From assembly GCF_034932065.1 (NCBI RefSeq), contig NZ_JAYGHP010000002.1:124001-188000 (forward strand): a stretch of DNA of 64,000 nt, written 5' to 3'. The stretch is from Crocosphaera sp. UHCC 0190 (GTDB lineage: Bacteria > Cyanobacteriota > Cyanobacteriia > Cyanobacteriales > Microcystaceae). Position 1 is the stretch's first letter. Each line of letters begins with the position of its first letter. Shown here in pieces: positions 4,770 through 6,446 of the stretch. The notes under the pieces were generated by a model. It searched no databases, was not told the DNA's origin, and saw nothing but the letters and a program-made list of their open reading frames with translations. Both the position numbers and the translations under genes were made by a program.

Positions 4770-6446
4770 TTAACGGGGAGGCAACTGCTGTCGCCACTGT
4801 TTGATCGACTGTTGTGTTTTTTCGTAAACCTGACTATCCTGGGGAACAAATTGAGCCGTTTTCAGAGCTAAGCTTAATTGTCCTTGTTTTGCCCTAGTTT
4901 GGGCTAATTGATAAATTTGTTGACTCAATTGTTCAATCAACTTTTGCGCGGTATTATAGCCAGGTTCTCCCATTTTTAGATATTTTAAAGTCGTAATTGC
5001 CCGATTATAAGAAGATGCTTGGTTTGGCTTCACTAAGGCTAAAGCTGCCTCAATTAAGACTTGATTATCCGCTTGTTGTTGACTCAAGGTTTGCCAACGT
5101 TTAATCGACTGCTGGGCTGATAAATAAAGGGTTTGATGCTCATTAGGCACTAATTGCGCGGCAGCGATCGCGCCCCCAAAATCTCCCTGAGTCGCTCTTC
5201 CTTGGGCAATATCGAGAATTAATTGACTCCAACGGGCAATATTTCGTCTTGCGTCCCCATATAAAGGCGTATGGGGCTGAATTTGACGGGCAAATTGAAT
5301 AGACTCATTTAAGCGCGAAGCTTGATATAGACTTAAGGGGATTTTGGCATAGTCTAAAACAAGTTGATTTTTCTCGATTTTCTCCTGATTAGCCAAATCT
5401 AGCTGTTGTCTGATTTTTCCGGGTATCAGCCAGAATAACCCGATTAAAACGAGCATTACCCCTCCCCACCCCAACCATTGGGGCAAGCCTTTGATTTTAG
5501 TTAAGATTGCCTGTTTTTTGACGGTGGGGGTTACTATTTGCTGATTATCACCTTGGGTTGTATTGCCCTTGCTTTGTTGTCTGGGTAAGGAAAACTTAAA
5601 CTGAGTTTGAATCGGTGATTTTGGTAAAATCGGTAAGTTTAGGGTTGTGATAGGTTGATTAACCGTTGTTTGGTGCAAATTTTGTTGTAAAGTAACGGTT
5701 AAGGCTTGATAATCAGTTTTTTCTTGGGGTTGGGGTTGGGGTAACAAAGGTTGACGACTGGCGGTTAAACTGGGGCTAATAATGATGGGGAGTGCAATAG
5801 TCGGAAAATTAGCCCGATGAATAGGGTTTAAGCGTTCTTGTAGATAAGCATCTAACTTAGTCAGGGTGAGATGATGACCATAGTAACGCAAGGCTTCAAT
5901 TAAAGCCGTCATAAAGATGCCTTTTTCTGCACTGATGGTTTGATAGACAGGGGAACGACAGGAAAAAATCAAAGAAATGCCCTTTTGTTGGGCTAATTCT
6001 AGGGTTATTTGTCCTAACTTGCCATCTTTAAACGGATTTTGTAGATCTAAGATCACTAATAATTGTTCACTACTGGCGTTTAATTTTTCAAACAGCGATC
6101 GCATTTTAATCCCTGTTTGGGGGATGGTTTGGGGGTTACTATCAATAGGCAATAAATAGTCTTCTCCTTGATAATTAACCCCATATCCTTGAAAAAAGAA
6201 CCAACAATGTTTAACTTTTAGGGGACTATCATTAAGCCATTCCAGTATATTTTCTCGGTTGGGATAGGTTGAGCGTTTTCCTGGAGAGGGGGAAGTATCC
6301 GTTAATAAGAGTAATTGACGGGAGGGGAGTTTCGCTTCTTGGAAAAAATAGCAATAGAGAGCTTGTGCGTTATTCTCTGGGCCTTTTAGGGGTTGCCAAT
6401 GGAAATATTCTTCAATTCCCATCGTGATAGCGCGAAAATTTTCCAT
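4770..6446 (-). CDS. Membrane-anchored caspase-like (orthocaspase) protein with substituted catalytic dyad
   Basis: A 558-residue protein with three parts. Residues 1-225 resemble the peptidase C14/metacaspase p20 fold: NAQALYCYF, WFFFQGYGVNYQGEDYLLPID (81-102) and LLVILDLQNPF (129-139). Active family members have SGHG and DxC at these places; here they read QGYG and DLQ, so the catalytic His is Tyr88 and the Cys is Gln136. A membrane segment follows at about 325-343. The C-terminal region is helical and contains two related repeats (about 410-455 and 510-555), each with a LAxxRAxQG start and a QQSIKxW end. Proteolysis is therefore unlikely and a binding or scaffold role is more probable. Start ATG at 6446; no operon partners. 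Confidence 0.8.
   Translation of the reverse strand: MENFRAITMGIEEYFHWQPLKGPENNAQALYCYFFQEAKLPSRQLLLLTDTSPSPGKRSTYPNRENILEWLNDSPLKVKHCWFFFQGYGVNYQGEDYLLPIDSNPQTIPQTGIKMRSLFEKLNASSEQLLVILDLQNPFKDGKLGQITLELAQQKGISLIFSCRSPVYQTISAEKGIFMTALIEALRYYGHHLTLTKLDAYLQERLNPIHRANFPTIALPIIISPSLTASRQPLLPQPQPQEKTDYQALTVTLQQNLHQTTVNQPITTLNLPILPKSPIQTQFKFSLPRQQSKGNTTQGDNQQIVTPTVKKQAILTKIKGLPQWLGWGGVMLVLIGLFWLIPGKIRQQLDLANQEKIEKNQLVLDYAKIPLSLYQASRLNESIQFARQIQPHTPLYGDARRNIARWSQLILDIAQGRATQGDFGGAIAAAQLVPNEHQTLYLSAQQSIKRWQTLSQQQADNQVLIEAALALVKPNQASSYNRAITTLKYLKMGEPGYNTAQKLIEQLSQQIYQLAQTRAKQGQLSLALKTAQFVPQDSQVYEKTQQSIKQWRQQLPPR

Follow-up and report, generated by a model that had tools for sequence, protein, structure and literature searches.

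The closest described systems are the YN pseudo-orthocaspases of cyanobacteria, which have a caspase p20 domain without the His-Cys (HC) dyad, and carry Tyr at the His position (PMC6426788, PMC8283722). The passages of PMC6426788 that define the YS and YN clades give no identifiable C-terminal domain for either, and state that YN occurs only in multicellular nitrogen-fixing cyanobacteria. The survey parts of PMC8283722 report spans in 37 pseudo-orthocaspases, and TPR 1 and TPR 16 models in single pseudo-forms, one each. YS/YG pseudo-orthocaspases, for example SyOC of Synechocystis, also have a p20 domain without the HC dyad; YS forms constitute a separate published clade. Deletion of the Synechocystis pseudo-orthocaspase is described to result in higher peroxide tolerance (PMC7889975, relevant section). 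An architecture of a C14 domain and a C-terminal span, with C14 predicted inside, is described for seven cyanobacterial species (PMC3501461, relevant section). A literature search for pseudo-orthocaspases in combination with Crocosphaera found no report.

Here, a window of 64,000 nucleotides from Crocosphaera sp. UHCC 0190 was analysed, whose genome (G000) comprises 4.43 Mb in 38 contigs. The open reading frame 4770-6446 on the minus strand encodes P0001, for which the following features were assigned (window positions):

4770..6446, minus strand: whole gene, open frame with ATG start, for a membrane-anchored pseudo-orthocaspase of 558 aa (ORF and Pfam)
5757..6446, minus strand: pseudo-p20 (caspase) domain, residues 1-230 (Pfam, model, fold matches)
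6369..6371, minus strand: Asn26, at the position taken by Asp95 in the S1 pocket of T. brucei MCA2 (alignments)
6183..6185, minus strand: Tyr88 (codon TAT), at the catalytic His position (alignments)
6045..6047, minus strand: Asp134, corresponding to the D of D-x-C and conserved in 56 of 60 family rows (alignment columns)
6039..6041, minus strand: Gln136 (codon CAA), at the catalytic Cys position (alignment)
5487..5756, minus strand: variable linker, residues 231-320 (dN/dS 0.26-0.82, the highest part in 9 of 9 pairs)
5418..5474, minus strand: single transmembrane segment, residues 325-343 (hydropathy 1.88, top segment)
4782..5390, minus strand: C-terminal all-helical domain, residues 353-555, with two related repeats at about 357-453 and 459-555 (model, self-similarity, homology to a 639-aa membrane protein)

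A sequence-only reading of this gene had recognised a p20-like fold, and both the search with the p20 domain model and the structure prediction confirm it. Peptidase C14 (PF00656) is the sole Pfam domain over cut-off in P0001 and matches residues 5-207 (34.2 bits, cut-off 21.4 bits, E 2.8e-8); the general Pfam scan found no second caspase match that would suggest a p10 domain. The predicted p20 model (pLDDT 88.1, pTM 0.88) has its closest folds in metacaspases and MALT1: It matches metacaspase-4 with a VIA Z of 20.4 (rmsd 3.0, 211 aligned) and MALT1 with a Foldseek E of 8.7e-10. An NCBIfam search with P0001 gave no match, and two relatives match NF047832 far under its cut-off (32 and 46 vs 140 bits). 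In a defence library, P0001 matches the generic caspase model alone (E 4.1e-6), and a defence role is unsupported.

The proposal that Tyr and Gln replace the catalytic His and Cys was substantiated by two alignments. When the family profile was aligned to solved metacaspases (T. brucei MCA2, E 2.3e-6), SGHG fell opposite the family motif SGYG (QGYG in P0001), which puts Tyr88 at the His position; these alignments end before the Cys. A second alignment, in which P0001 and 6 family members were set against 26 further C14 domains from cyanobacteria (17 of them with an intact HC dyad and 9 pseudo-forms), places Gln136 in the Cys column. Six of 32 candidates were left out of this comparison (L155, L156, L164, L182 and L003 with no p20-model match, L177 as a family member), and the script used the longest ORF per locus, possibly not the C14 ORF. 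In the p20 model, Gln136 ends strand 126-136, and Tyr88 lies inside the long strand 78-92. An intact pair elsewhere in the domain would contradict the replacement. The p20 part of P0001 has eight His and Cys residues, among which just Cys163 falls in a column that frequently has Cys (34 of 60 family rows). Its His residues all lie outside the columns with frequent His in the 60-row alignment; the columns with His in 38 and 30 of 60 rows contain Ala and Asn in P0001. This means, no relocated conserved pair was found in P0001. Judged by its sequence, P0001 lacks the His-Cys dyad of active orthocaspases, and because the catalytic nucleophile is absent, it is probably catalytically inactive. The residue pair had seemed unfamiliar in the sequence-only reading, but it is not novel: YQ is listed among 16 rare variants in 473 cyanobacterial orthocaspases (PMC8283722) and is also given among the variants in a review (PMC7475262), in the passages of both that deal with such variants.

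The remaining layout agrees with that reading as well. Residues 325-343 are a single hydrophobic segment, the top one in P0001, and the strongest such segment falls between p20 and the C-terminal domain in P0001 and all 79 named relatives. Repeat 2 of P0001 matches repeat 1 of relatives with ~30-42% identity, in accordance with two related helical repeats after the span. Of the 80 named loci, 79 have an ORF that combines p20, the span and one or more repeats, and in 76 of these 79 the C-terminal domain exceeds 180 residues.

A scan of genome contigs with P0001 alone yielded 38 stretches and no confirmed relative. An alignment query over named genomes then found 386 relatives, of which 80 were kept; L147, a fragment at a contig end, was removed from these 80 loci before counting. 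A search of 98 related genomes revealed full-length relatives beyond the host's family. P0001 and the 79 named relatives comprise 67 YN, 7 YQ, 3 CN and one each of YR, YT and YH, a set that is biased toward Tyr88 because one of its two search patterns contains GYG. The 48 rows found without the GYG pattern comprise 24 YN, 9 YQ, 5 YR, 3 YT, 2 YY and one each of CN, YH, YI, HN and HH, i.e. Tyr at position 88 in 45 of 48. Named YQ carriers are Cyanothece sp. BG0011, the unicellular cyanobacterium SU3, C. watsonii WH 8501 and three Crocosphaera MAGs.

A p20 tree was calculated from 68 domains, 60 of the family and 8 HC. The family rows were hand-picked for spread (31 of the 79 named relatives, 28 from further genomes and P0001), and the tree tool issued a long-branch warning for the distant HC rows and for L057, L053 and L045. 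The 60 family rows are split from the 8 HC rows with a support of 100/99. All YQ rows form one clade (100/98), share codon CAA at position 136 (7 of 7) and are located inside a 20-row clade (99/97). We take this larger clade to be unicellular from the names of its members and from the hetR result in family f1, whose searched genomes gave no hetR match. Asn136 is present in 2 of its 20 rows vs 39 of the 40 others (41 of 60 overall), and Tyr88 in 20 of 20 and 37 of 40 (57 of 60 overall). Outside YQ, the family has Asn, Arg, Thr, Tyr, His or Ile at position 136. Scored with the p20 model of the family, the nearest HC proteins are L154, L157, L158 and L170 (147-226 bits; other scored C14 domains ≤51). 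These four orthocaspases have the closest p20 among those compared, yet their His/Cys is intact, their match to P0001 is confined to the p20 part, and their DACR corresponds to DINR or a similar motif in most of the family. Two f22 relatives keep His at position 88 (HN, HH), either retained or reverted; because of them, the two dyad residues need not have been lost, nor Tyr88 gained, in a single event. In this tree, computed here apart from the published one, P0001 is by descent a YN pseudo-orthocaspase with a changed residue, Gln136 instead of the Asn of the YN clade. It further differs from YN forms by the loss of the S1 Asp and by its unicellular relatives. New is the fixation of YQ in one small clade, our genome and its Crocosphaera relatives, nested in a mostly Tyr/Asn family.

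Presence of the family was defined as a listed match at E <= 8.4e-98, and weaker members exist below this value, e.g. in G002, G004, G005, G012 and G025, all of them hetR-negative. Thus counted, the family is present in at least 147 of 291 genomes. The gene hetR is a marker of filamentous growth. Among the matches listed, a family gene was found in 136 of 161 genomes with a hetR match and in 11 of 130 without, an association that is overstated because the weaker hetR-negative members fall below the E cut-off. The 11 include our genome and C. watsonii. A nifK match was found in 109 of 291 genomes (107 over its family's cut-off) and in 65 of the 147 family-bearing ones. The 82 family-bearing genomes without a nifK match and six nifK-bearing genomes of 1.4-3.1 Mb without a strong family match (G007, G015, G020, G026, G031, G034) leave a role in nitrogen fixation unsupported. 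YN forms occur in genomes without a nifK match, e.g. G050 and G081, and in Cyanothece sp. UBA12306, whose genus is presumably unicellular. Since the family is found in genomes without nifK and without hetR, and YN in the named Cyanothece strain, YN is not confined to multicellular nitrogen fixers, contrary to the published statement.

In P0001, Asn26 occupies the position of the Asp of the GCCND motif in metacaspases. We take this Asp to be TbMC2 Asp95 in the S1 pocket, and TbMC2 Asp211 to be the D of DxC. Of the two Asp of a metacaspase-type basic S1 pocket, P0001 has Asp134, with Asn26 at the Asp95 position. Asp26 is present in 4 of 20 rows of the unicellular clade vs 40 of 40 elsewhere; four genes are present twice, trimmed slightly differently (L082/L018, L094/L027, L086/L025, L126/L020), so that the distinct counts are 3 of 19 and 37 of 37. 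Also new is that in the unicellular clade the residue at the Cys position has drifted and the acidic S1-pocket residue is mostly lost. As judged from the alignment, this loss argues against peptide binding in the clade of P0001. It could reflect a relaxed constraint on the pocket instead of a switch in role.

Our genome has three C14 matches at E <= 0.01: L001, P0001 and L003. L001, the other one over the Pfam cut-off, is a YS pseudo-form of 742 aa with SGYG and DTS; L003 has TGHG and QCFSG and, with 20.4 bits, lies under the cut-off. An HC dyad was not found in any further C14 protein of this genome that exceeds the cut-off. The N-terminus of L001 (184-2412, minus strand) contains a twin-arginine-like stretch, RRTFLQ, matching published YS forms. 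A membrane-bound decoy that binds peptides or partner caspases had been proposed for P0001. The membrane anchor stands; the binding part is weakened by Asn26 and because L001, the other C14 protein over cut-off, is a pseudo-form (YS), too.

The C-terminal domain (residues 353-558) was modelled as all-helical (pLDDT 90.3, pTM 0.74). A fold search among solved structures found no decisive relative: Foldseek E was 5.5e-3 at best, and VIA Z was ≤10.6, a level reached by chance in helical repeats. No TPR model is over cut-off in P0001; one relative passes the related ARM_TT21 (31.5 vs 27 bits). Because the fold matches are weak, TPR-like binding by this domain would be a guess from its predicted shape. 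The domain is homologous to residues 409-610 of a 639-aa membrane protein from the same genome (hhalign probability 99.3%, E 2.1e-20), encoded at L059 3917-5833 on the minus strand (G000:C3:334129-336045). This protein was matched in 59 of 60 genomes of the order (exception: a 75% complete genome, one match short) and has no Pfam family over cut-off. It shares the homologous helical repeats with P0001, but has no p20, and its span is near the N-terminus (by eye). The homology of the C-terminal domain to part of this protein is new. The repeat domain seen in P0001 is absent from the passages on YN forms in PMC6426788 and PMC8283722. A span and repeats without p20 are encoded in ORFs of four genomes (G064, G091, G067, G093). 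The span of P0001 is flanked by 4 positive and 0 negative charges on the N side and by 4 positive and 3 negative on the C side; many relatives carry more positives on the C side, and charges do not settle sidedness. Since no signal peptide is apparent by eye, and given how long the N-terminal part is, p20 would be cytosolic and the C-terminal domain extracytoplasmic.

Selection was assessed with our own NG86 script in nine pairs of YQ genes. dN/dS amounted to 0.08-0.23 for p20, 0.10-0.26 for the C-terminal domain (covered in part in C. watsonii) and 0.26-0.82 for the linker; the ratios of all three P0001 pairs and of L077/L075 are rough because dS is >1 there. In addition, 15 columns of the p20 alignment are invariant across 38 sequences. 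Purifying selection on p20 means that this fold still serves some function. Even within the YQ group, conservation of the gene is not strict: In C. watsonii, a stop removes most of the second repeat, and Cyanothece sp. BG0011 has, besides the intact copy L074, a second, broken YQ copy at a contig end (L147, 2-1282) with 74% identity to the window protein in the best segment. A p20 relic with six stops is located at G031:C1:1972846-1973109 in a 3.1 Mb genome that retains nifK; from its size, we guess that this may be a reduced endosymbiont genome.

For other lineages, the neighbourhood suggests a candidate partner. Of 81 loci (the window and 80 named ones), 49 have, next to the family gene and divergent to it, a gene whose product of about 120-370 aa looks exported, judging by eye from its hydrophobic N-terminus and an A-x-A-like site. 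The divergent pair occurs in at least 59 of 147 genomes from eight families of the order (f5, f11, f14, f21, f22, f28, f32, f33), a lower bound because 89 of the match places and no weaker ones were used. By matched ends, the two genes are 60-789 bp apart in 58 of these 59 genomes. One example is L084 5355-5862 (minus strand), besides 48 other named loci. Two members were scanned and gave no Pfam match. As a general partner, this neighbour was rejected for our genome: No match at E <= 1e-8 was found in G000 or C. watsonii (G017). No operon of the window gene was recognised: Its neighbours in the window do not recur beside the family gene in 16 gene orders examined. In Crocosphaera, an ABC-transporter cluster precedes the family gene instead. 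At L084 8131-8506 and L136 7914-8289 (both minus strand), a gene for a short protein lies immediately downstream of the family gene; the protein matches the Mo-dependent nitrogenase C-terminus (PF06967, scanned for L136), and its cluster spans 49 loci.

On balance, we consider it probable that P0001 is a catalytically dead, selectively maintained single-pass membrane scaffold of YN descent. The computations show the fold and the loss of the dyad, membership in the family, the span, homologous repeats, purifying selection and the loss of the pocket residue. From these we infer sidedness, inactivity, the order of changes, partner binding and the scaffold role itself. The simplest history would begin with an HC orthocaspase ancestor whose dyad early became Tyr/Asn. 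Later, in the unicellular lineage of our genome, position 136 would have drifted, at the Cys position to Gln, and the acidic S1 residue would have been lost. A role of a peptide in the pocket, if there was any, would have been dropped, while fold, anchor and repeats were held by purifying selection. The cytosolic p20 may now serve as a folded binding surface and no longer as a protease. Linker and one span would join it to the TPR-like helical domain in the periplasm or thylakoid lumen, and this domain probably binds a partner there.

Alternatively, P0001 might be a decoy or regulator, comparable to cFLIP-L or TbMC4, that accommodates basic peptides or an active orthocaspase in its pocket. Such a role fits the conservation of Asp26 (40 of 40) and Asn136 (39 of 40) in rows outside the unicellular clade and the acidic pocket modelled in YN forms in a passage of PMC6426788. 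We regard it as unlikely for P0001, where Asp26 is Asn and where no further C14 protein of the genome that exceeds the cut-off has an HC dyad; moreover, in its Discussion, PMC6426788 argues that pseudo-forms work without active partners. Another possibility is a relict in slow decay, whose p20 became dispensable after the loss of catalysis and whose C-terminal domain carries the function. The ORFs with span and repeats lacking p20 in four genomes, the degraded or truncated copies in Crocosphaera relatives, the six-stop relic in G031 and the variation of dyad and pocket in the unicellular clade speak for it. However, dN/dS of p20 is about as low as that of the C-terminal domain, and the 15 invariant columns are hard to reconcile with decay, so that this explanation is improbable, too. 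That Tyr88 and Gln136 constitute an unrecognised active site of a hydrolase or ligase is hardly credible: Tyr88 is widespread (57 of 60 rows) and Gln is fixed in all 7 YQ rows, but Gln is no nucleophile, and the variety of residues at position 136 fits no shared chemistry.

The scaffold reading can be extended, as a tentative and rather doubtful idea, to a mostly vertically inherited cyanobacterial transmembrane receptor-like system. It would consist of a dead cytosolic caspase fold, one span and extracytoplasmic repeats, with the exported divergent partner as a possible ligand in many filamentous lineages; the window lineage would have a reduced version without this partner or the acidic pocket. 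As a kind, P0001 is ordinary, since cyanobacterial caspase relatives of this inactive type are widespread and have been reported before. The value added here lies in the pocket history, the C-terminal homology and the candidate partner in other lineages. An odd residue pair turns into a readable history, in which the dyad would have been lost first; in unicellular cyanobacteria, the Cys position would then have drifted and the pocket acid disappeared, with the fold kept. For pseudo-orthocaspases, such a history would separate catalysis, peptide binding and scaffolding from each other. In addition, a conserved C-terminal domain is now recognised in the family, as is a candidate for a partner gene in other lineages.
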